From Salegentibacter lacus (GTDB lineage: Bacteria > Bacteroidota > Bacteroidia > Flavobacteriales > Flavobacteriaceae): DNA of 32,383 nucleotides. The notes under the pieces are model-generated. The model did no database searches. It was not told the DNA's origin and saw only the letters and a program-made list of their open reading frames with translations. A program made the position numbers and the translations under genes. The stretch spans positions 1 to 32,383 of the forward strand of contig NZ_JAIQZB010000027.1 in assembly GCF_020164555.1 (NCBI RefSeq), given 5' to 3'. Positions 2,945 to 30,769 of the stretch are shown one piece after another (the stretch's first letter is position 1; the number at the start of each line of letters is the position of its first letter).

Positions 2945-5563
2945 TTAAAATTGTTGTCCGATAATGAAATGTGTTTCCCATCCATTAGCTCCGGGTTGTC
3001 CACCAATTGGATCAAACCCATAACCGAAGTCAATACCAAGTAAACCAAAGGCTGGCATAAAGATTCTTAAACCTGCACCGGCCGATCTATTCACCTGGAA
3101 AGGATTGAAATCCCTGAAATTATCGTAAGATGCACCCGCTTCTAAGAAGGTAAGTGCATAAATAGATGCAGAAGGTTTTAAAGTAATAGGATATCTAAGT
3201 TCTAAAGAATATTTGTTGTAAATGGTCGCACCATCATCATTAACTCCCGCTGGGCGGTCTAAAGGCACTACAGATTGGTTTGGGTAACCTCTTAACTGTA
3301 CAGTTTCTCTCCCATCTAAACTAAACGCTCCAAGGCCATCACCACCAAGAAAGAATCTTTCGAAAGGAGGAACGCCACGGTCGCTGTTATAAGCTCCAAG
3401 GAAACCATATTCAGCATTGGTTCTTAATACAAGTTTGTCGTAGATTTGGGTAAACCACTCTCCACTAAATTTAACTTTATAGAATTCTAGCCAGTTAAAT
3501 TTTTTCTGATCTATTAGACGTTGGTCTCCCACTGCATTTTCAGGAGTTACTCTATTGCCTTGTTGGTCTATAAGATTCCCATTGTCATCTTCCAGTTGAA
3601 ACTCTCTTTGTTCGTCTAGATTGGCATAATCTACACCATTCCATAAAGAATAAGGAGGGGTGAATTTTGCCGTAAGTTTAAATTTAGAACCTCCCATTGG
3701 GAAAATTGGGTTCACGTATGTATTATCTCTGGTAAGCCCAAAAGTATAGGTAAAGTTGTTAGAGTGGCCATCACCAAAAGTAAATAAGCCTGTGTTGTAA
3801 TTATTTAAGTTATAACGTTGAAAACCTAAAGAGTGAGATACCGTCATATAAGGATCGGGTACCGTTAAACGTTTTGCTAAACCTACATTTACTCCAAGAA
3901 TATCAAAACTCCTGCTTCTATCTGCCTGGCGATTTATATAATCGAATAAAAACTGCCTTGTATAAGAGAAAGAAGTTTGAAGGCTTACCGGTTTTTTGCC
4001 TCCTAACCAGGGCTCCTGAAAGGATAGGCTATAAGTTTGGTAGAACGTACTGGCTTGTGCTCTTAAAGAAAGGGTTTGCCCGTCTCCCATTGGTACCGGT
4101 TTATAGGCTTCTTTATCAAAAATTCCCGATAAAGAGAAGTTGTTGAAAGAAAGTCCCAAAGTACCAATGAAGCCACCACCACCGTAACCACCTTGTAGTT
4201 CTATTTGGCTAGCGCCTGCTTCTACAACCGAGTATTCAAGATCTAAGGTACCTGCCTGTGGATCTGGATCAACAAATTTTGGTTCAAGTTGCTCTGCATC
4301 AAAGAAACCTAATTGACCAAGCTCCCTAACAGTATTTACAACATCTTCCTGGCTGTATTTTTGTCCTGGTTTTGTTCTTAATTCACGATAGATTACGTGA
4401 TCTTTTGTCTTATCATTTCCGGTTACGCTAATATTATTGAAATATGCTTCTTTACCTTCTACAATTCGTATTTCAAAATCTATCGTATCATTATAAACGT
4501 TAGTTTCTACGAGGTTGATGTTAGAAAATAAATAACCATTGTTTTTATATAAGTTAGAAAGATCTTCCCCGTCCGGTTTGGTTTCATCGGCAATTCGCTC
4601 GTCCAAAAGAACTCCATTATAAACATCGCCTTTATTTATTCCTAAAGCACGTTGTAATTGAGCATCTGTATAAACCGAATTTCCAAGATAATCTATGTTA
4701 CCTATGTAATATTGATCTCCTTCTTCTACTTTAAGGTTTAAAGCTATGGTTTTATCATCAACCTCTACAAGAGAATCTGTTACAATCCTGGCATCTCGAT
4801 AACCGCTTTCTTTATACTTATCTATAATATTTTCTTTGTCTTCCCGGTAATCTGCCCTAACAAATTTTGATCTTTTCCAGAAGCGGATAAAATTCTTTTG
4901 CTTGGTGTTTTTCATTGCCCTTTTAAGTTTAGCATCAGAGAATTTTTCATTTCCGCTAAAGTTTATATCGGCAATTTTTACACGGTCACCCTGATCTATA
5001 TCTATAAGCATATTTACCAGGTTAGTGTTAGCCGTGGTATCGGTAACTTCGCTGGTGCTTATTTTTGCATTAGCATTAAAATATCCTTCTTTACGATATT
5101 TACTTTCAATGTAATTTTTGGTAGTAGTGATAAGGTTTTCAGAAACTTTAGCACCTGCTCTCAACTTATTTTCCTTAATAATTTCTTCTTGTTCACGTTT
5201 TTTGAGACCGGTAACCTGAATTTTATTAAGTTTTGGAACTTCCTGAATTTCAATTTCAAGATCGGCTATATTGCCGTCGCGAACATTAGTGATGTAAAAA
5301 TTGATATCGCTAAATTGATCAATATCCCATAGTTTATTGATCACGCTACTAATTTTGTCTCCGGGAATATAAATTTCCTCCCCTTTTTTAAGTCCGGTAT
5401 AGGCAATCACGGTTTGCTCGTTAAAACTAACGGTCCCCGTAACTTTTATATCTCCAATTATATACTTTTTGCCATCTGCTAATGGTAAGCCCTGAGCTTG
5501 TGAAGAAATGCTAAAAATTAAACTGCATGCTACTGCCAGAAGGGTAAATACTTTCTTCGCCAT
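2945..5563 (-). CDS. bamA: Outer-membrane protein assembly factor BamA
   Basis: BamA is the essential outer-membrane insertase that folds beta-barrel proteins. I place the start at 5563 (MAKKVFTLLAVACSLIFSIS…), which gives a clean signal peptide cleaved near SQA-Q24 and an 872-residue protein 7 bp after uppS. A frame open further upstream to 5701 would run through the end of uppS and is not credible. About five POTRA repeats span residues 30-430, with typical 'GNEKFSDAKL', 'GNSVYTDAQL' and 'GQLGFFD' elements. A surface-antigen beta-barrel follows to the C-terminus. The chain ends in GQQF, with the terminal aromatic residue expected of a beta-signal. Insertions in the barrel loops (for example around EFQLEDDNGN) are typical of the phylum. 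Confidence 0.95.
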   Translation of the reverse strand: MAKKVFTLLAVACSLIFSISSQAQGLPLADGKKYIIGDIKVTGTVSFNEQTVIAYTGLKKGEEIYIPGDKISSVINKLWDIDQFSDINFYITNVRDGNIADLEIEIQEVPKLNKIQVTGLKKREQEEIIKENKLRAGAKVSENLITTTKNYIESKYRKEGYFNANAKISTSEVTDTTANTNLVNMLIDIDQGDRVKIADINFSGNEKFSDAKLKRAMKNTKQKNFIRFWKRSKFVRADYREDKENIIDKYKESGYRDARIVTDSLVEVDDKTIALNLKVEEGDQYYIGNIDYLGNSVYTDAQLQRALGINKGDVYNGVLLDERIADETKPDGEDLSNLYKNNGYLFSNINLVETNVYNDTIDFEIRIVEGKEAYFNNISVTGNDKTKDHVIYRELRTKPGQKYSQEDVVNTVRELGQLGFFDAEQLEPKFVDPDPQAGTLDLEYSVVEAGASQIELQGGYGGGGFIGTLGLSFNNFSLSGIFDKEAYKPVPMGDGQTLSLRAQASTFYQTYSLSFQEPWLGGKKPVSLQTSFSYTRQFLFDYINRQADRSRSFDILGVNVGLAKRLTVPDPYMTVSHSLGFQRYNLNNYNTGLFTFGDGHSNNFTYTFGLTRDNTYVNPIFPMGGSKFKLTAKFTPPYSLWNGVDYANLDEQREFQLEDDNGNLIDQQGNRVTPENAVGDQRLIDQKKFNWLEFYKVKFSGEWFTQIYDKLVLRTNAEYGFLGAYNSDRGVPPFERFFLGGDGLGAFSLDGRETVQLRGYPNQSVVPLDRPAGVNDDGATIYNKYSLELRYPITLKPSASIYALTFLEAGASYDNFRDFNPFQVNRSAGAGLRIFMPAFGLLGIDFGYGFDPIGGQPGANGWETHFIIGQQF

Positions 5564-5570
5564 GAATGCG

Positions 5571-6311
5571 CTAACTGAGTTGCTCACTGGTTTTTCCAAA
5601 TCGTCGTTCTCTATTTTGATAATTGTAAATGGCTTCAAAAAGATTTTCTTTTCTAAAATCTGGCCACAAAATTTTTGTAAAATATAATTCGGCATAAGCA
5701 ATTTGCCATAAAAGGAAGTTGCTTATGCGTTGTTCTCCGCTGGTTCTGATTAATAAATCTACCTCCGGAAAATTTCGGGTGTAAAGATGCTTATTTATAA
5801 CCGATTCATCAATAGCATCGGCGCTTATTTCATTATTTTTAACTTTCAGGCTAATTTCCTTTATCGCAGAGGTTAACTCTTCCCGCGAACCGTAACTAAG
5901 TGCAAGATTAAGCACCATACGATTGTTGGTTTTAGTTTTCTCTATAACTTCGTGAAGTTCTCTAAAGACTTTTTTAGGAAGAGTGTTTAAATTTCCTATG
6001 GCATTTAATCTAATATTATTATCCTGAAGGGTTTTAATTTCCTTTCTTAAAGAAGAAACCAATAACCGCATTAGAGTGTCTACCTCTAATTTGGGACGTT
6101 TCCAGTTTTCTGTTGAGAAGGCATAAAGGGTTAGGTATTCAATACCAATTTCGGCTGAAGCTTCTACAACATCCCTTACCGCGGTGGTACCCTCTTCGTG
6201 TCCCGCAGCTCTTAGAAAGCCTTTTCTCCTGGCCCAACGTCCATTACCGTCCATAATTATGGCAATATGTTTGGGCAGTTTTTTAAGATCTATGTTGTCT
6301 TTATAATTCAT
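5571..6311 (-). CDS. uppS: Isoprenyl transferase (undecaprenyl diphosphate synthase) UppS
   Basis: This cis-prenyltransferase condenses isopentenyl diphosphate onto farnesyl diphosphate to make the C55 carrier for peptidoglycan and other cell-wall polymers. The 246-residue protein shows HIAIIMDGNGRWA with the catalytic Asp21, then the helix TLYAFSTENWKRP, and near the C-terminus LLIRTSGEQRISNFLLWQ followed by AYAELYF, all hallmarks of the family. It is packed 1 bp after porG and 7 bp before bamA on the same strand, so the three are almost certainly cotranscribed. Its substrate would come from the mevalonate route whose genes lie at 22.7-24.8 kb. Confidence 0.96.
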   Translation of the reverse strand: MNYKDNIDLKKLPKHIAIIMDGNGRWARRKGFLRAAGHEEGTTAVRDVVEASAEIGIEYLTLYAFSTENWKRPKLEVDTLMRLLVSSLRKEIKTLQDNNIRLNAIGNLNTLPKKVFRELHEVIEKTKTNNRMVLNLALSYGSREELTSAIKEISLKVKNNEISADAIDESVINKHLYTRNFPEVDLLIRTSGEQRISNFLLWQIAYAELYFTKILWPDFRKENLFEAIYNYQNRERRFGKTSEQLS

Positions 6312-6312
6312 A

Positions 6313-7017
6313 TTAAAATCTACTGTAGCAAGGCTCTCTACCCCAGGAAAAGGTAAAATTTACTGCTGTAAAAACATACCAATCATTAGTATTCCTATTT
6401 CCGAATTCCCTTTTAGGCATTCTGTTGCCAAAAATTTCTTCGGGCCAGCTTCCATCCAGATTATCGGTAAATGTATAGCGCACGCCTAATTCCAAAGCTC
6501 CTACGATATGGGTGGTAATACTCTCTTTGTAACCAAAAACCACCGGGATTGCAAAATCCCAGTTTGCGCCCTGGTTTTCCAGTTCGCCATTAGGGAAATC
6601 GGCGTTAAGCAATAAATGGTCTGCTCTAAAATAAGTTATCCCTGTATATAGATATGGTGTGCTTTGGGGATGACCCTCGTGAAGATCAAAACTCCAAAAA
6701 TTATACTCTAAACCCAAAGAAGCTTCTGCAATAGTATTACTAAATGAGTACCCTCTGTTTAATCTTCGTGGATCGTTAGAATTTGCATCATCTGCACTTA
6801 TTTCTGCATATAAAAGTGAAAATCTAAAGGCGTGCCGGGGACTTCTATTCCATTTAAGAAGTGCGCCACCAACCAGCCCACTGGGAAGAACAAAGTTAGT
6901 TCGGCCTACATCTCCAATATAGTTAGCGCCACCAATATATGGTCCTACTTCAAATGTTTGGGAATGTGTTTTCGGAGCAAAAACAAGCATGATAACAAAT
7001 ACTAATAGGTACCTCAT
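6313..7017 (-). CDS. porG: PorG-like outer-membrane beta-barrel (DUF6089), type IX secretion component
   Basis: A 234-residue protein with a signal peptide (residues 1-19, THS-QTF) followed by 'EVGPYIGGANYIGDVG' and a series of short amphipathic strands (RFSLLYAEISADD, YFRADHLLLNAD, LGVRYTFTDNLDG). It ends near an aromatic-rich strand. In P. gingivalis the gene directly before uppS and bamA is porG (PG0189), an outer-membrane barrel linked to the PorK/N ring of the type IX secretion system. The same gene order, size and DUF6089-like sequence support that identity. It is the first gene of the cluster and has its own promoter-like element. Sequence similarity within this family is low, so synteny carries much of the call. 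Confidence 0.8.
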   Translation of the reverse strand: MRYLLVFVIMLVFAPKTHSQTFEVGPYIGGANYIGDVGRTNFVLPSGLVGGALLKWNRSPRHAFRFSLLYAEISADDANSNDPRRLNRGYSFSNTIAEASLGLEYNFWSFDLHEGHPQSTPYLYTGITYFRADHLLLNADFPNGELENQGANWDFAIPVVFGYKESITTHIVGALELGVRYTFTDNLDGSWPEEIFGNRMPKREFGNRNTNDWYVFTAVNFTFSWGREPCYSRF

Positions 7018-7034
7018 AGGCTTTCAAAAGTTTG

Positions 7035-7064
7035 CAAATATAACAATTATGTTTGCTCCACAAT
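7035..7064 (-). promoter_or_regulatory. Promoter of the porG-uppS-bamA cluster
   Basis: On the minus strand TATATTTG at 7042-7035 matches the Bacteroidota -7 element TAnnTTTG exactly. ATTG at 7064-7061 lies 18 bp upstream as a near match to the -33 TTTG. The start of transcription would be about 10 bases before the porG ATG. Confidence 0.55.
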
Positions 7065-7117
7065 AATTTGAGCAAGTTTGTACATATTCATAAACAGTTT
7101 TTAAAATCATTTATTGC

Positions 7118-8002
7118 TTAATTGCGCTTATCCTCACCCCACATTAACTTTTTTCTAAGGGTGTGAAGAAAACTATCGCCTTTGAGTTCAACAAGATTTA
7201 TTGCGTAGGGTGCTTTTTCTATAATGATTTCGGTATCATTTTCCAGAGTTGCGATTCGGGAATCCATAGAAACTAAATGTGATTCTTCCCGTCCCGAAAC
7301 CCGAAGTGTAATTTTTGTGTCGTCTTTAATTACTAATGGGCGCGCATTTAAATTGTGCGGTGCGATGGGAGTAATAATAAGAGAGCCTGCATCTGGAGTA
7401 ATTACAGGTCCGCCACAGCTAAGGGAATAACCTGTAGAGCCTGTGGGTGTAGATACAATAAGTCCATCTGCCCAATAAGAATTTAAATATTGATCATTTA
7501 GCCAGGTATCTACAGTAATCATAGAAGTGGTGTTCTTTCTACTAACCGCGACTTCATTTAAAGCTATATTTCTAAAAACTGGATCGTGGCTGGGGGGATT
7601 GGTGCTTATATTTAAAACACTGCGCCTGGAAATGCTGAATTTCTTTTCCAGTATACTCTGTAGGCATTCCTTAATTTCCTCTTTCTGAATTGTAGACAAA
7701 AACCCCAATCTCCCGGTATTAATACCTACAATTGGAATATCTAAATTCCTGATATAATTAATAGATTTTAGAATAGTACCATCACCCCCAATACAAAAAA
7801 ACAAGTCGAAGCTATTATCCAGTTCTTCAAAAGTGCTGAAATGGGAATATTTTTCATCTATAGTCTTGTTTAGATGAATTAGATCAAGGAAATTTTCTTC
7901 AATTACTACTTTAATATTCTCGCGCTTCAGTAACTCCAGAAGCTGTCCTATATAGACACCGGCATTGGTGTGGTAAAACTGACCGTAGATGCCTACTTTC
8001 AT
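7118..8002 (-). CDS. nadK: NAD kinase
   Basis: This enzyme phosphorylates NAD+ to NADP+ in the cytoplasm. The 294-residue protein carries FCIGGDGTILKS (the GGDGT phosphate-binding motif at residues 72-76), GINTGRLGFLST, NEVAVSRK, and the glycine-rich WADGLIVSTPTGSTGYSLSCGGP segment that binds the dinucleotide. It ends with the beta-sandwich domain typical of the family. Its ATG overlaps the stop of the upstream CBS-domain gene as ATGA, so the two are translationally coupled. This pairing suggests that the CBS protein senses a nucleotide relevant to NADP supply, but that is inference. Confidence 0.96.
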   Translation of the reverse strand: MKVGIYGQFYHTNAGVYIGQLLELLKRENIKVVIEENFLDLIHLNKTIDEKYSHFSTFEELDNSFDLFFCIGGDGTILKSINYIRNLDIPIVGINTGRLGFLSTIQKEEIKECLQSILEKKFSISRRSVLNISTNPPSHDPVFRNIALNEVAVSRKNTTSMITVDTWLNDQYLNSYWADGLIVSTPTGSTGYSLSCGGPVITPDAGSLIITPIAPHNLNARPLVIKDDTKITLRVSGREESHLVSMDSRIATLENDTEIIIEKAPYAINLVELKGDSFLHTLRKKLMWGEDKRN

Positions 8003-17103: not shown

Positions 17104-17138
17104 AGCGGCCAGAAATCTAGATTTTTTGGCCGCTTTTT
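17104..17138 (+). terminator. Terminator after clpX, possibly shared with the convergent operon
   Basis: AGCGGCCA (17104-17111) pairs with TGGCCGCT (17127-17134), and the loop contains an inner palindrome around TCTAGA. The hairpin runs into TTTTTG on the plus strand. It lies between the converging clpX and DUF1989 genes and has T-rich sequence on both sides. Confidence 0.92.
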
Positions 17139-17162: not shown

Positions 17163-17741
17163 TTAACCTAATATCTCATAATGTATAGGTTTAAAACTTC
17201 CGTTATTGCTGTCTTCGGCAGAACAAGCGGTTAAGCCAACAATCAGGTCCATTTTGGCCTCAAACAAGATATAGTCACCCGCTTTACTTAAAGGCGGGTC
17301 TACATTTATTTTTCCATTTTTATCAAATTGAACATTCATAAATATGTTGAATGCCGTGGGAATATCGTCTGGCTCAATTTCAAATTTTTCCAGGTTGGTA
17401 TAAAGATTTTCAAAACAGCTGGGATGGTAACCCTTATAATCATACATCACCTCAAAAGTTTCAGGGCTGCAGGGTGCCAGTAAAAAGTCATTTCTTCCGT
17501 TGGTATCTTCCAGGATTTCTATCATTTTATTGCTCCGGTTGCTCCAAAGGAAGTTACCGGCAGTTATCAAAATAGATTCTTCAAAATCCATTGTTTTCCC
17601 TGATGATAATTTTTCCCTACGGTCTTTTGCATTAAATAAAACCATATCGCTAACCTGCTCGCCTTCGGGATCTATTACTTTCAGTTTCTGCCCTTTTTTC
17701 AGTTTAAAGGCGGCTCCAGATTGCTTTTTAATTATATGCAT
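17163..17741 (-). CDS. DUF1989 / urea-carboxylase-associated family protein
   Basis: The 192-residue protein has the DUF1989 layout. It comprises an N-terminal 'GAAFKLKKGQKLKVIDPEGEQVSD' barrel strand set, LLAPCSPETFEV (Cys91), GYHPSCFENL (His106, Cys109), FNIFMNV, and the closing SKAGDYILFEAKMDLIVGLTACSAED (Cys173). The Cys and His positions are likely metal or active-site residues. Relatives include the urea-amidolyase-associated proteins and the subunits of carboxyguanidine deiminase, which act on small guanidine- or urea-derived molecules. Here no urea carboxylase is nearby. The gene overlaps the upstream PaiB-like gene by 10 bp and is the last of a three-gene operon. Its substrate is unknown. 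Confidence 0.88.
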   Translation of the reverse strand: MHIIKKQSGAAFKLKKGQKLKVIDPEGEQVSDMVLFNAKDRREKLSSGKTMDFEESILITAGNFLWSNRSNKMIEILEDTNGRNDFLLAPCSPETFEVMYDYKGYHPSCFENLYTNLEKFEIEPDDIPTAFNIFMNVQFDKNGKINVDPPLSKAGDYILFEAKMDLIVGLTACSAEDSNNGSFKPIHYEILG

Positions 17742-18343
17742 TTATGCTCTTTTTTAATGTTTTCGCTTAAAGCGGAATTATTTTGTTGCTGTTCTAAATG
17801 TGAGGTGACCGATTCGATATCTTCTTTATTATAACCCTGATGCAGTTTCGCTATTCCCTGAATCTTTTCCACTTCACACCAAAACCCGGAAATTAATGGT
17901 AAATGATCTTCCAGCATTTTCTTTGGAATATCATTATAATACAAGGGTTTTTCCTGTGGCTTTTCAAAAGTGGCTACAAGTTTCTGTAACGAATCTTCAA
18001 GCTCTTCCCTGGACTGGATCTTAAGTTTTACGTTTACATGCACTGCAGAATAATCCCAGGTGCTAATATCTTTTTCTTTGTACCAGGAAGAAGAAACGTA
18101 GCCGTGCGCTCCCTGAAAAATCAGCAGTGCTTCTTTACCATCTTCCAGGTATTTAAACTGTTCGTTGTGGTTTGCTATATGAGCAAATAAAATAAAGTCT
18201 TTTGCCGTACCGTGAGTGAGAACAGGGATATGGGTAGCTAAAAGCCGGTCGCCGTTAATTATAAAAGTTGCAAAGGGATGATGCTGTATAAATTTAAAAA
18301 TAAATTCAGGATCATCCTTTTTGTATTTCTTAGGCTGGTACAT
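17732..18343 (-). CDS. PaiB-like FMN-binding protein
   Basis: From the ATG at 18343 the protein has 203 residues and begins MYQPKKYKKDDPEFIFKFIQ, the standard PaiB start. An upstream in-frame start at 18379 would overlap the previous gene by 31 bp and adds 12 unconserved residues, so I reject it. Family features are HPFATFIINGDRLLATHIPV, FILFAHIANHNEQFKYL, ALLIFQGAHGYVSSSWY and the KPLYYNDIPKKMLEDHLPLISGF block. The fold is a split-barrel flavin-binding one. PaiB was named as a transcriptional regulator in Bacillus, but the fold also suits an enzyme. Five bp separate it from the YcgG-family gene, so it is part of one operon. Confidence 0.88.
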   Translation of the reverse strand: MYQPKKYKKDDPEFIFKFIQHHPFATFIINGDRLLATHIPVLTHGTAKDFILFAHIANHNEQFKYLEDGKEALLIFQGAHGYVSSSWYKEKDISTWDYSAVHVNVKLKIQSREELEDSLQKLVATFEKPQEKPLYYNDIPKKMLEDHLPLISGFWCEVEKIQGIAKLHQGYNKEDIESVTSHLEQQQNNSALSENIKKEHKCI

Positions 18344-18348
18344 AGTTA

Positions 18349-19044
18349 TTATTTTCCGTGAAGAAAAGGACATTTCCATTCCTCTCCAACTTTACGGCCA
18401 CTATATTGCCTGGCTTCGCTTTTTTCTCCAAAATCTTCCAACATAGGGTTTATGTTACCCTGTAACTCGCTATCGCGTTCTCTAATCTTATCACGAACGG
18501 TATTAAATGCGCCCATTTCTCTTAATTTTTCAAATTGCCAGTGTAAATTAAAGGCAATCGCCGGGTAAGGGCTCCGTCTTGCTTTACGGCTGCTGTTTGG
18601 ATGCATGCCAACTATATAAAAAGCTTTTCCGGCAATGCTAAAACTGAAATTTTTATCTTCGGGGTTATCGCTAACTTCAGGATCCCAGTTTTCATTATCT
18701 AAATCATGTAAAAACTCAAGTTGTTTCCAGAGCGCTGTTTCAAATTGATTTTCAGAAAATGAATCCTGATCTTTAAAAACCGCCATAAACGTATAGAATT
18801 CTTTAGATTCAAAATCGTAGTTTTCAATATACTTTTGTAAATCTTTATAGATGAGTTTTGCTGTTTTTCGGCTGGGAAATTCATCGTAGGTATGAAGATC
18901 TAAATGGTTTTGTCCAAAAACCGTTTGGGCCATAATACAAGGATGATCTTTAGTTAGCACAAAATCTTTAAATGCAAGCTCTATAGTCTTGTCTGCAGTA
19001 GTTTGTGACTGCTTTGCTTTTGGTTTTTCCTTTGAAGAAATCAT
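18349..19044 (-). CDS. YqcI/YcgG-family protein, putative heme-dependent N-oxygenase
   Basis: The 231-residue cytoplasmic protein carries the family landmarks. These are an early HPCIMAQTVF segment (His34-Pro35-Cys36), a central YIVGMHPNSSRKARRSPYPAIAFNLHWQFE stretch split here as HPNSS (148-152) and AFNLHWQFE, and a C-terminal QYSGRKVGEEWKCPF ending with Cys225. The family (PF08892) includes GntA of guanitoxin biosynthesis, described as a heme-dependent N-hydroxylase acting on a guanidine nitrogen. That activity is a hypothesis for this gene. It heads a tight operon with PaiB-like and DUF1989 genes. A decayed SemiSWEET gene lies 102 bp upstream on the same strand. Confidence 0.85.
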   Translation of the reverse strand: MISSKEKPKAKQSQTTADKTIELAFKDFVLTKDHPCIMAQTVFGQNHLDLHTYDEFPSRKTAKLIYKDLQKYIENYDFESKEFYTFMAVFKDQDSFSENQFETALWKQLEFLHDLDNENWDPEVSDNPEDKNFSFSIAGKAFYIVGMHPNSSRKARRSPYPAIAFNLHWQFEKLREMGAFNTVRDKIRERDSELQGNINPMLEDFGEKSEARQYSGRKVGEEWKCPFLHGK

Positions 19045-19146: not shown

Positions 19147-19402
19147 TTATTCCTTTTTACGGTATCGAAGCATTAAATACAACATAACTCCATTTAACCA
19201 GCGAGAAACTCCATTTGTAGCAATAATAGGAAGATGATTTTAGGTAATTCCATAGAAAAACGCCCAGAATTAAAATGCTAAACATTTCCGGAGACACATC
19301 TTCTATTTTCTTGGTTTTCCAGGCTTTTTTAATCTGAGGAATAACCTCCAAGGTTGTACAGATTCCTGCAGCCAGTCCCCTAATATCAGTCCACTATAGC
19401 AT
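19147..19402 (-). pseudogene. SemiSWEET-family sugar transporter, inactivated
   Basis: Read from an ATG at 19402 the frame gives M-L-stop-WTDIRGLAAGICTTLEVIPQ and continues into IKKAWKTKKIEDVSPEMFSI and LILGVFLW. This is the first half of a SemiSWEET (PQ-loop) protein with its PQ motif. The family's second half then appears in another frame as FYGIT-stop-NHLPIIATNGVS and WLNGVMLYLMLRYRKKE, ending at a TAA at 19147-19149. The damage is therefore a TAG at codon 3, a small indel at FLW/FYG and a TAA soon after. The total span of 256 bp fits the usual 85-90 codons. It begins 6 bp after the DUF421 stop and was probably its operon partner. The middle frame alone gives a 64-codon TTG-initiated ORF that is not a real protein. 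Confidence 0.85.
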
Positions 19403-27479: not shown

Positions 27480-28883
27480 TTGAAGACTAAATACAGCGAT
27501 TTAATAAACCAGACCTATTATTTTCCCCAGGAAGAGTTCACTCTGGAAGGCACCGAATTAAAATTTCATGACATAGATTTAATGGAGCTTGTTAAGCAAT
27601 ATGGCTCTCCGTTAAAATTTACTTATCTGCCTAAAATTTCAGACAATATAGGAAGGGCAAAAAAGTGGTTTGCAGATGCCATGGCAAAACACGATTACAA
27701 AGGGAGCTATAATTACTGCTATTGTACTAAAAGTTCTCATTTTCAGCATGTTTTAAATGAAGCATTAAAAAATGATATTCATATTGAAACCTCCTCGGCT
27801 TTCGATATAAATATTGTGGAAGAATTAAAGAAATCTGGAAAAATAACCGACGATACTTTTGTGCTTTGTAATGGTTTTAAGCGAGACCAGTACGTAGAAA
27901 ATATTTCACGTTTATTGAATAATGGCCATAAGAATTGCATTCCGATTATAGATAATTACGAGGAAATTGATCTTTTAACTGAAAAAATTGAAGGGAAATT
28001 TCCTATCGGAATAAGGATTGCTTCAGAAGAAGAACCAAAATTTGAATTCTATACCTCAAGGTTAGGTATAGGCTACAAGAACATTGTGCCTTTTTATAAT
28101 AAGCAGATAAAGGAAAACGACCAGGTTAGCCTTAAAATGCTGCATTTCTTTATCAATACAGGAATTCGTGATACTGCTTATTACTGGAACGAATTACAGA
28201 AATGTTTACGCGTTTATGTGAATTTAAAGAAAGTTTGTCCTGAATTGGATAGCTTGAATATTGGCGGAGGATTTCCGGTGAAAAACTCGTTGCATTTTGA
28301 GTATGATTATGCCTATATGGTAGACGAGATTATAAACCAGATTAAGCTTTATTGTGAGGAAGCCGAAGTTGATGTTCCTAATATTTTCACTGAATTTGGA
28401 AGTTTTACCGTAGGAGAAAGCGGCGGTGCGATCTATGAGATTTTATACCAAAAACAACAAAACGATCGTGAAAAGTGGAATATGATTAATTCTTCATTTA
28501 TTACCACTTTGCCAGATACCTGGGCCATAAGTAAGAAATTTGTTATGCTTCCGGTAAACCGTTGGAACGATGAATATGAACGCGTTTTACTTGGTGGTTT
28601 AACCTGTGATAGTGACGATTATTATAATTCAGAGCAGAACGTGAATGCCATTTACCTACCGAAGTATAAAAAAGATAAACCGCTTTATATTGGGTTTTTT
28701 AACACGGGGGCGTACCAGGAAACTATTGGAGGTCACGGTGGTTTGCATCACTGTTTAATTCCGCAGCCAAAACACATTCTTATAGATAAAGATACAGATG
28801 GAAATATAGAAACCAGTTTGTTTAGCCCTGAACAAAATGCCGATGATATGCTTAAAATACTGGGTTACAAGGAAAACAATTAA
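27480..28883 (+). CDS. speA: Arginine decarboxylase, short Bacteroidota type (PLP, alanine-racemase fold)
   Basis: The enzyme should decarboxylate arginine to agmatine, the first step of putrescine synthesis. The 467-residue protein is much shorter than E. coli-type SpeA (about 630-660). It has YNYCYCTKSSHFQHVL with the PLP-binding Lys84, HIETSSAFDINIVEELKKSG, LNIGGGFPVK (the phosphate-binding glycine strand), FTEFGSFTVGESGG, and LGGLTCDSDDYYN with the catalytic Cys, ending GAYQETIGG. The substrate is inferred from the agmatinase gene 46 bp downstream. The start is TTG at 27480 (MKTKYSDLINQTYYFPQEEF); the next ATG is 35 codons in and would remove conserved sequence. Confidence 0.88.
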   Translation: MKTKYSDLINQTYYFPQEEFTLEGTELKFHDIDLMELVKQYGSPLKFTYLPKISDNIGRAKKWFADAMAKHDYKGSYNYCYCTKSSHFQHVLNEALKNDIHIETSSAFDINIVEELKKSGKITDDTFVLCNGFKRDQYVENISRLLNNGHKNCIPIIDNYEEIDLLTEKIEGKFPIGIRIASEEEPKFEFYTSRLGIGYKNIVPFYNKQIKENDQVSLKMLHFFINTGIRDTAYYWNELQKCLRVYVNLKKVCPELDSLNIGGGFPVKNSLHFEYDYAYMVDEIINQIKLYCEEAEVDVPNIFTEFGSFTVGESGGAIYEILYQKQQNDREKWNMINSSFITTLPDTWAISKKFVMLPVNRWNDEYERVLLGGLTCDSDDYYNSEQNVNAIYLPKYKKDKPLYIGFFNTGAYQETIGGHGGLHHCLIPQPKHILIDKDTDGNIETSLFSPEQNADDMLKILGYKENN

Positions 28884-28929
28884 TTTTTTATAAATTTATA
28901 TAACCAACAACAACCAATTTAGCATTACA

Positions 28930-29805
28930 ATGAATAAAAAGAATTACGCCGGAATACCTGATAAATATTCGCGTATTGATGACGCGAAAGTGGTATTAAT
29001 CCCGGTTCCTTACGACGGAACAAGTAGCTGGCAAAAAGGGGCAGATAAAGGACCAGAAGCTTTTCTTGAGGCTTCAGAGAATATGGAACTTTATGATATT
29101 GAAACAAAATCTGAAGTTTATAAAAAAGGAATTTATCTAGCACCGCCAGTAACCGAAGATTCTTCGCCAGAGAAAATGGTAGATACCGTTTATAAAACCG
29201 TAAAAAACTACATAAAACAGGAGAAGTTTGTTACTATTTTCGGGGGAGAACATTCTGTGTCCATAGGTACTATTCGGGCGTTTAATGAGAGTTTTGAAGA
29301 TCTTACCATAGTGCAATTAGATGCGCATGCCGATCTTAGACCTGAGTATGAAGGTTCAAGTTGTAACCACGCTTGTGCAGTTCACGAGGCCAGTAAGAAA
29401 GCTAATTTAGTGCAGGTTGGGATTCGTTCTATGGATGTTTCTGAAGTTGAACATATGGACGAAAACCAGGTTTATTTTGCCCACGATCTTTATGAAGACT
29501 GGCAGGAGGATGCTATTGGACAAATGACGCCAAATGTTTTTATTACCATAGATTTAGATGCGTTTGATCCTTCAATTTTACCATCTACAGGAACCCCGGA
29601 ACCGGGCGGACTTTTCTGGTACGAAACGCTGGAATTCCTAAAAATGATGTTCAAGAAGAAAAATGTTGTAGGATTTGACATTGTAGAACTTTGCCCGAAT
29701 AAAAACGAAAAATCATCAGATTTTCTTGCGGCTAAGCTTTATTATAAGATGTTGAGCTACAAATTTAAATACCAAAATTATAACGAAGAAGACGAAGATG
29801 AGTAA
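28930..29805 (+). CDS. speB: Agmatinase
   Basis: This ureohydrolase splits agmatine into putrescine and urea. The 291-residue protein carries the binuclear manganese ligands in FGGEHSV (His108), QLDAHADLR (Asp131, His133, Asp135) and ITIDLDAFDPS (Asp208, Asp210). The substrate-side loop is PSTGTPEPGG, typical of agmatinases. It follows arginine decarboxylase by 46 bp and overlaps the deoxyhypusine-synthase-like gene by 8 bp, so the three are translated from one message. The tail is acidic (YNEEDEDE). Confidence 0.94.
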   Translation: MNKKNYAGIPDKYSRIDDAKVVLIPVPYDGTSSWQKGADKGPEAFLEASENMELYDIETKSEVYKKGIYLAPPVTEDSSPEKMVDTVYKTVKNYIKQEKFVTIFGGEHSVSIGTIRAFNESFEDLTIVQLDAHADLRPEYEGSSCNHACAVHEASKKANLVQVGIRSMDVSEVEHMDENQVYFAHDLYEDWQEDAIGQMTPNVFITIDLDAFDPSILPSTGTPEPGGLFWYETLEFLKMMFKKKNVVGFDIVELCPNKNEKSSDFLAAKLYYKMLSYKFKYQNYNEEDEDE

Positions 29806-30769
29806 AGGTGCGATTTCCCAATTTATAGAAAAATATTATTTACATTTTAATTCCGCAGCACTAGTAGATGCTGCAAAAAGTTACGAAAAGCAACTTGAAG
29901 GAGGCTCAAAGATGTTGGTTTCCTTAGCCGGTGCAATGAGTACTGCAGAGCTCGGCAAAATCTTTGCGGAAATGATTCGTAAAGACAAAGTTCATATTGT
30001 TTCCTGTACCGGCGCAAACCTCGAAGAAGATGTAATGAATTTGGTGGCTCATTCCCATTATAAAAGAGTTCCGCATTACCGCGATTTGACCGCTCAGGAT
30101 GAATGGGATTTATTAGAAAAAGGTCTTAACCGGGTGACAGATACCTGTATTCCCGAAGAAGAAGCTTTTAGAAGAATTCAGAAGCATATTGTAAAAATTT
30201 GGAAAGATGCCGAAGCCAATGGCGAACGCTATTTCCCTCATGAATTTCTTTACAAATTATTACTTTCCGGGGTTTTGGAAGAGCATTACGAAATAGATCT
30301 CAAAGATTCCTGGATGTATGCCGCAGCCGAAAAGAATTTACCAATGGTTGTTCCAGGATGGGAAGATAGTACCCTTGGGAATATTTTCGCTTCCTACGTG
30401 CTTAAAGGCGAATTAAAAGCAAGTACAATGAAGTCCGGGATTGAATATATGACTTTCCTTGCAGAGTGGTACACCAATAATTCTAAAGAAGGAATTGGTT
30501 TCTTCCAGATTGGTGGAGGAATAGCCGGTGATTTTCCTATCTGTGTAGTACCAATGTTATATCAGGATATGGAAAGAACTGACACTCCTTTTTGGAGCTA
30601 TTTCTGCCAAATCTCAGATTCTACAACCAGTTATGGTTCTTATTCTGGAGCTGTACCTAACGAAAAAATCACCTGGGGAAAATTAGATATAAACACTCCC
30701 AAACATATTATAGAAAGCGACGCAACCATTGTCGCACCCTTAATTTTCGCTTATTTGCTGGATATGTAA
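29798..30769 (+). CDS. Deoxyhypusine-synthase homologue, probable homospermidine synthase-like enzyme
   Basis: The 323-residue protein has the DHS fold and NAD sites: MLVSLAGAMSTAELG, HIVSCTGANLEEDV, IGFFQIGGGIAGDFPI, SDSTTSYGSYSGAVPNEK, and TWGKLDI, where Lys295 matches the human catalytic Lys329 that carries the aminobutyl imine. By hand alignment human Trp327 and Glu323 are kept (Trp293, Glu289), but human Asp316 is Tyr282 and His288 is Asp245. Bacteria lack eIF5A, so the acceptor must differ. In Anabaena a DHS homologue is needed for homospermidine. With agmatinase directly upstream, putrescine is the likely donor or acceptor. Confidence 0.88.
   Translation: MSKGAISQFIEKYYLHFNSAALVDAAKSYEKQLEGGSKMLVSLAGAMSTAELGKIFAEMIRKDKVHIVSCTGANLEEDVMNLVAHSHYKRVPHYRDLTAQDEWDLLEKGLNRVTDTCIPEEEAFRRIQKHIVKIWKDAEANGERYFPHEFLYKLLLSGVLEEHYEIDLKDSWMYAAAEKNLPMVVPGWEDSTLGNIFASYVLKGELKASTMKSGIEYMTFLAEWYTNNSKEGIGFFQIGGGIAGDFPICVVPMLYQDMERTDTPFWSYFCQISDSTTSYGSYSGAVPNEKITWGKLDINTPKHIIESDATIVAPLIFAYLLDM

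Follow-up and report, generated by a model that had tools for sequence, protein, structure and literature searches.

A gntA–DUF1989 gene pair from Salegentibacter lacus and its relatives likely represents one uncharacterised N-oxidation pathway

Introduction

The YqcI/YcgG family has more than 4,000 members (PMC10849742, in excerpt) and, according to excerpts of two papers, the enzymes of this family already characterised hydroxylate guanidines (PMC12866846; PMC10849742). Proteins related to DUF1989 include carboxyguanidine deiminase, as an excerpt of PMC11271267 states. Here, we analyse a minus-strand locus of Salegentibacter lacus in which a gntA-like gene of the YqcI/YcgG family, a PaiB-like gene and a DUF1989 gene lie next to each other; the window is the whole 32,383-nucleotide stretch of DNA examined (contig NZ_JAIQZB010000027.1). 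The cassette is real and its core consists of two genes, gntA followed by the DUF1989 gene, which likely represent one uncharacterised N-oxidation pathway. DUF1989 is still listed in Pfam as a domain of unknown function. A search of the open-access literature, which covers neither subscription papers nor preprints outside PMC, returned no description of the pair, and DUF1989 or urea carboxylase-associated terms were absent from the guanitoxin and gntA papers among the matches listed.

Coupling of gntA with the DUF1989 gene

Of 395 Bacteroidota genomes drawn evenly, the window's genome included, nine matched the GntA model NF041366 and ten the DUF1989 model PF09347, with all nine among those ten. 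Eight of the nine have the two genes directly adjacent; in the window's genome, which has one PF08892 match and one DUF1989 match, the PaiB-like gene stands between them. The association of GntA with DUF1989 is far beyond chance (Fisher p = 1.7e-17, a value that ignores relatedness). The tenth DUF1989 genome (G154) carries tandem UAAP2/UAAP1-type genes and no GntA match.

A protein scan of genome contigs, which reaches close relatives only, yielded 84 GntA relatives, and the best 80 (50–88% identity; apparently all Bacteroidota by title) were compared. In 78 of these 80 loci, gntA comes first and the DUF1989 gene follows downstream on the same strand. Where the two are direct neighbours (33 loci), they lie within 15 bp of each other or overlap in 26, with gene starts chosen mechanically.

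The pair also occurs on plasmids. Searching plasmid records with tblastn gave 28 records for the GntA query and 492 for the DUF1989 query, and the best 40 of the 492 were examined. A GntA match lies beside each of the best 14 of the 492 DUF1989 records (51.6–74.2% identity), which belong to Chryseobacterium, Hymenobacter, Sphingobium, Novosphingobium, Sphingomonas, Skermanella, Comamonas, another member of the Comamonadaceae and Deinococcus and so cover Bacteroidota, Alpha- and Betaproteobacteria and Deinococcus; the 15th row, at 36.6% identity, has no gntA link. We opened 12 of the 14 regions, using the incomplete gene tables of the plasmid collection, and found an annotated DUF1989-type gene directly after gntA in 11, with a 4-bp overlap in five, an 8-bp overlap in three and a 3–4-bp gap in three. 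The DUF1989 match on the Hymenobacter plasmid is unannotated and broken into two pieces. The four regions opened around distant YqcI/YcgG genes from Priestia and from haloarchaea show no DUF1989 annotated beside these genes in the same incomplete tables, and four DUF1989 genes outside the gntA-linked clade have other annotated neighbours. The PF08892–DUF1989 pair therefore spans at least three phyla and is not confined to close relatives, the outcome that would have refuted the initial annotation. The initial annotation had asked for conserved co-occurrence of all three families; this holds across phyla for GntA with DUF1989, whereas PaiB joins them in Flavobacteriaceae-type genera only.

Gene trees were built from 45 chosen pairs, namely the window, 27 named loci, six unnamed relatives and 11 plasmid pairs; the pairs left out include Haloflavibacter and the split one from Hymenobacter. 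The gntA and DUF1989 distances correlate with r = 0.83 (maximum of 2000 permutations, 0.33), and strongly supported splits recur in the other tree in 13 of 20 cases for gntA and 9 of 13 for DUF1989, with one strong conflict. The correlated trees point to transfer as a unit. Four Bacteroidota pairs (L007–L010) cluster with Alphaproteobacteria in both trees as drawn, a shared grouping that suggests joint transfer of gntA and DUF1989.

Two other records concern the pair. On a Sphingomonas insulae plasmid (L113, 5264–8816), the pair and a deaminase gene overlap at the pair's end, and a gene resembling Orn/Lys/Arg decarboxylases lies divergently upstream. A record from human faeces titled "Bacteriophage sp." (L176, MT836826.1), unannotated and probably a bacterial contig, contains the pair with a 4-bp overlap.

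The GntA-type and DUF1989 proteins

The GntA-type protein scores 217 bits against PF08892 (cut-off 27) and 322 bits against NF041366, "GntA_guanitoxin" (cut-off 145), and these scores support its earlier placement among GntA-like N-oxygenases. Cys36 occupies the position of the axial AglA Cys44 in 34/34 sequences (profile match E = 1.3e-7), and equivalents of AglA Arg166 and Phe182 are present; AglA Lys196 and Arg200 fall beyond the aligned part. The protein shows the sandwich fold of the YqcI/YcgG thiolate-heme N-oxygenases and matches the AglA fold. It is probably a thiolate-heme N-oxygenase, with heme binding and N-oxygenation predicted from these features.

DUF1989-paired genes of Flavobacteriaceae, sphingomonads, Comamonas and Deinococcus receive the automatic name attached to NF041366, "guanitoxin biosynthesis GntA", which is misleading for them. 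No other gnt gene is named among the scanned or annotated neighbours of the window's gntA, the gntB–J models not having been searched genome-wide, and no other guanitoxin gene is annotated in the 12 plasmid regions (L102–L107, L109, L110, L113, L114, L144, L145).

For the DUF1989 protein the PF09347 score is 194 bits. The three cysteines of its predicted zinc site (Table 1) are kept in 30/30 sequences and align to C263, C279 and C343 of the trimethylamine N-oxide (TMAO) demethylase Tdm. The motifs SSG[KR][ST]xD[FY] and FKPI occur in 8/8 gntA-linked and 0/6 unlinked DUF1989 proteins; in another comparison L114 and L051 deviate from them.

Two specific identities were tried and rejected for this protein. 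Its best NCBIfam score, 118.5 bits against a cut-off of 284.7, is to UAAP2, one of the two models of the carboxyguanidine deiminase CgdAB (TIGR03424/TIGR03425), and the other model gives 86 bits against 205.95. Nor is the CgdAB arrangement of two adjacent DUF1989 genes with a urea/guanidine carboxylase present, as there is one DUF1989 gene only and no TIGR02712 match over the cut-off. The G154 pair, used as a control for these models, passes with 293 and 258.5 bits. Identity with TMAO demethylase fails likewise (NF053776, 90 bits against a cut-off of 1100), the protein consisting of 192 residues of DUF1989 alone with no GcvT domain. In G154 itself (L093, 1396–2774, minus strand), the tandem DUF1989 genes pass the UAAP2 and UAAP1 cut-offs, and the UAAP1-type partner lacks the zinc cysteines.

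The PaiB-like middle gene

The PaiB-like protein scores 143 bits against PF04299, and its profile matches are to PaiB (E = 6e-38) and to NohD (E = 2e-23), an N-hydroxylamine dehydratase by its PDB molecule name; no paper on NohD was found in the open-access literature. Residues H55, N60, T95 and K166 are invariant in 22/22 sequences and correspond, matched by motif and spacing, to the His, Asn, Thr and Lys of piperazate synthase and PaiB. Heme binding is thus predicted, and, as residues of its heme-binding relatives are retained, the earlier label of a flavin protein is doubtful.

PaiB has been added in particular lineages, some marine bacteria among them, and is not part of the core, since it stands between gntA and DUF1989 in only 43 of the 80 related loci. 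It is apparently split in L025, and at L033, L043 and L048 it occupies another place in the locus. PF04299 itself is common (99/395 Bacteroidota genomes, including seven of the nine with GntA) and adjoins gntA only in the window's genome; no PaiB gene separates the pair in the other eight sampled GntA genomes or in the 12 plasmid regions opened. Its association with the pair exceeds chance only within the set of Flavobacteriaceae-type genera. The proposal that the three genes form a cassette as a unit is consequently not supported.

LigD activities are normally fused in one protein. In L027, L030, L035, L045 and L052, three separate LigD-type genes (3'-phosphoesterase, ligase and primase-polymerase; families scanned in L027 only) lie between PaiB and DUF1989, and L032 has one separate LigD-type gene inside the cassette.

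Layout and surroundings of the locus

The features of the locus are collected in Table 1.

Table 1. Features of the gntA–DUF1989 locus in the S. lacus window.
Feature	Position	Strand	Description
gntA-like YqcI/YcgG thiolate-heme N-oxygenase (probable)	18349..19044	-	231 aa; PF08892, NCBIfam GntA (NF041366); predicted heme ligand Cys36
PaiB-family (PF04299) protein, predicted heme-binding, accessory, lineage-specific	17732..18343	-	PF04299; PaiB and NohD PDB matches
DUF1989 (PF09347) zinc enzyme (predicted)	17163..17741	-	192 aa; predicted Zn ligands Cys91, Cys109, Cys173; Asp32, His106 close by
Palindromic terminator-like hairpin	17104..17134		12-pair stem and T tail; consensus match only; between DUF1989 and convergent downstream gene

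The three minus-strand reading frames lie where the initial annotation had placed them. The PaiB-like frame has a second possible start, an upstream ATG at 18379, and the 5-bp gap to gntA holds for a start at 18343, the ATG from which the family alignment is conserved; the overlap of PaiB with DUF1989 is exactly 10 bp. A 364-bp gap and the terminator-like hairpin, the latter a probable operon end by its sequence, bound the three-gene operon. The agmatine-producing operon described earlier at a distance of about 10 kb exists at 27480–30769, about 8.4 kb from gntA and outside the 8-kb flanks compared among loci, and comprises arginine-decarboxylase-like, agmatinase and deoxyhypusine-synthase-like genes.

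Flanks of about 8 kb at the 80 related loci (27 genera, grouped by titles) were compared with 20 arbitrary 20-kb stretches from eight relatives. A YetF gene occurs within about 8 kb at 52 of the 80 loci (20 genera). Short-chain dehydrogenase/reductase (SDR) genes were found near the pair in 17 of the 27 genera, a SemiSWEET/PQ-loop protein, the sole recurrent transporter-like neighbour, in 15, an AraC regulator in 11, the catalase HPII (KatE) in seven, DUF892 in six and unsplit LigD in four; the control had SDR in one of 20 stretches and each of the others in none. YetF, SDR, KatE and similar neighbours are what we take to be stress-type genes. Plasmid regions beyond the phylum echo them with YetF, catalase and Hsp20 in one region each and have no constant neighbour; LigD occurs in the Chryseobacterium plasmid region, within Bacteroidota.

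A cluster of SemiSWEET/PQ-loop copies of about 86–119 amino acids is present in 32 relatives' loci, and a truncated remnant of 64 amino acids lies upstream of gntA in the window (19157–19351, minus strand). In L060, L061 and L088 (about 3474–7965), gntA comes directly after four glycosyltransferase genes that overlap or lie close together; their families were scanned in L088 only. A Rahnella plasmid operon (L108, 6941–12226) contains a GntA-type gene together with genes for an SDR, a 343-aa unknown protein, 2Fe-2S, LysE, B3/4 and MOSC proteins, with no DUF1989 annotated, and possibly represents another N-hydroxylation pathway.

Discussion

We give a probability of roughly 0.55 to the reading that GntA N-hydroxylates a small guanidino compound and DUF1989 then cleaves the product, so that the pair would be a small, mobile operon whose enzymes oxidise one nitrogen compound in a short pathway. 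The compound, plausibly a guanidine, would be arginine-like or guanidine itself. GntA would use O2 and electrons from a general ferredoxin/reductase, which we propose because none is encoded in the operon. DUF1989 would polarise the N-hydroxyguanidine on zinc and hydrolyse a C–N bond, releasing ammonia or hydroxylamine, a step modelled on the reaction of carboxyguanidine deiminase. In the Salegentibacter–Gillisia–Christiangramia group and a few others, the inserted heme PaiB-like protein would probably handle the N–O product or a side product, by analogy with the relatives that bear the names N-hydroxylamine dehydratase and piperazate synthase. The operon would in many Bacteroidota form part of a stress-type gene island. 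N-hydroxylation followed by zinc-dependent C–N cleavage appears to be the most economical reading because all three families meet on N–O/guanidine chemistry. We infer the substrate, step order, product and physiological role for a pair whose coupling, joint inheritance and intact metal sites are read from sequence. The earlier idea of an uncharacterised guanidine- or amine-oxidising pathway survives in that an N-oxygenase is conserved with DUF1989 across phyla, but without the three-gene unit and the flavin role.

Several observations weigh against this reading. Two substrate-side positions of AglA are changed in 34/34 sequences (Gln177 to Asn166, Arg179 to His168), and the substrate may therefore not be arginine-like. 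One DUF1989 relative, TMAO demethylase, acts on an N-oxide, so the family does not dictate deimination. Only 17 of 42 splits are common to the gntA and DUF1989 trees; gntA lacks DUF1989 in two of the 80 loci, L050 (Salegentibacter echinorum) and L088 (from Gramella sp. AN32, which has a complete second locus, L040); and a GntA-type gene stands with no DUF1989 annotated alongside in three plasmid regions, one from Rahnella and two from Streptomyces. The stress-type neighbour families were picked after being seen, and none of those listed occurs at L038, L062, L063, L066 or L074. No guanidine riboswitch was found in the window and seven loci (0 Rfam matches at gathering score), no guanidine or amino-acid transporter was recognised among the neighbour families scanned, and no urea carboxylase scores above the cut-off in the window's genome, which extends the earlier remark that none lies nearby.

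It is unlikely that the steps run in reverse, with DUF1989 making or trimming the substrate and GntA N-hydroxylating last to yield a small N-hydroxylated compound that might serve as a chelator, a signal or a growth inhibitor. Known YqcI/YcgG enzymes work in natural-product biosynthesis, as far as the excerpts of the literature go, and the pair is carried on plasmids; however, gntA invariably comes first in paired loci, the scanned families include no biosynthetic gene that recurs next to the pair (glycosyltransferase genes precede gntA in 3/80 loci), and two genes are minimal for an exported product.

Rather unlikely is the detoxification of free guanidine or its use as a nitrogen source by a route that bypasses the carboxylase, from guanidine through N-hydroxyguanidine to hydroxyurea and ammonia. 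Both families have guanidine-acting members, and the lack of a urea/guanidine carboxylase match over the cut-off in the genome would fit such a bypass, but the riboswitch result and the failure to recognise a guanidine exporter among the neighbour families scanned speak against it, as does the toxicity of hydroxyurea.

We consider it quite improbable that the substrate of GntA is an N-alkyl amine or guanidine, oxidised to an N-oxide or hydroxylamine that DUF1989, in the manner of TMAO demethylase, rearranges with release of an aldehyde. DUF1989 does align to that enzyme, which uses an N–O compound, with the three zinc cysteines, D198 and H276, but it falls far short of the model's cut-off and has no GcvT domain, and excerpts on TMAO demethylase describe its isolated N-terminal and GcvT domains as inactive.

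Improbable to the same degree is a mobile two-enzyme stress-response pathway in which a dedicated zinc DUF1989 hydrolase acts on N-hydroxyguanidine from a compact thiolate-heme GntA, perhaps releasing a reactive N–O species and so filling a role comparable to that of nitric oxide synthase in its absence, and a heme PaiB protein manages the N–O product. On this reading the GntA N-hydroxylase fold would be minimal and remotely related to the oxygenase domain of nitric oxide synthase, to judge from fold matches that are all sub-threshold. Hitch-hiking of biochemically unlinked genes in a genomic island is very improbable: many Bacteroidota loci are rich in stress-type genes, but the pair persists across phyla while its neighbours change, its genes are closely spaced or overlap, and the two trees correlate.

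If N-hydroxyguanidine hydrolysis is true, it would add a new branch to guanidine metabolism alongside the carboxylase and guanidinase routes. Few YqcI/YcgG members have been characterised, and the conserved, apparently co-transferred pair places a defined enzyme ahead of DUF1989, whose substrate can thus be found by making the GntA product.

Among described systems, the YqcI/YcgG guanidine N-hydroxylases AglA, GntA, ChmN and DcsA resemble the window's GntA in families, axial cysteine and fold; they sit in natural-product clusters, whereas the window's GntA is coupled to DUF1989 instead. PaiB, NohD and piperazate synthase (PF04299) have heme and catalytic residues in common with the PaiB-like protein, which is nearer to PaiB than to NohD. 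Tdm matches the window's DUF1989 at the zinc cysteines and the D198 and H276 positions but carries GcvT and an extra N-terminal domain, both lacking here. CgdAB (UAAP1/UAAP2) shares the DUF1989 family; it is a gene pair found with urea carboxylase, in contrast to the single DUF1989 gene of the window, which is coupled to gntA.
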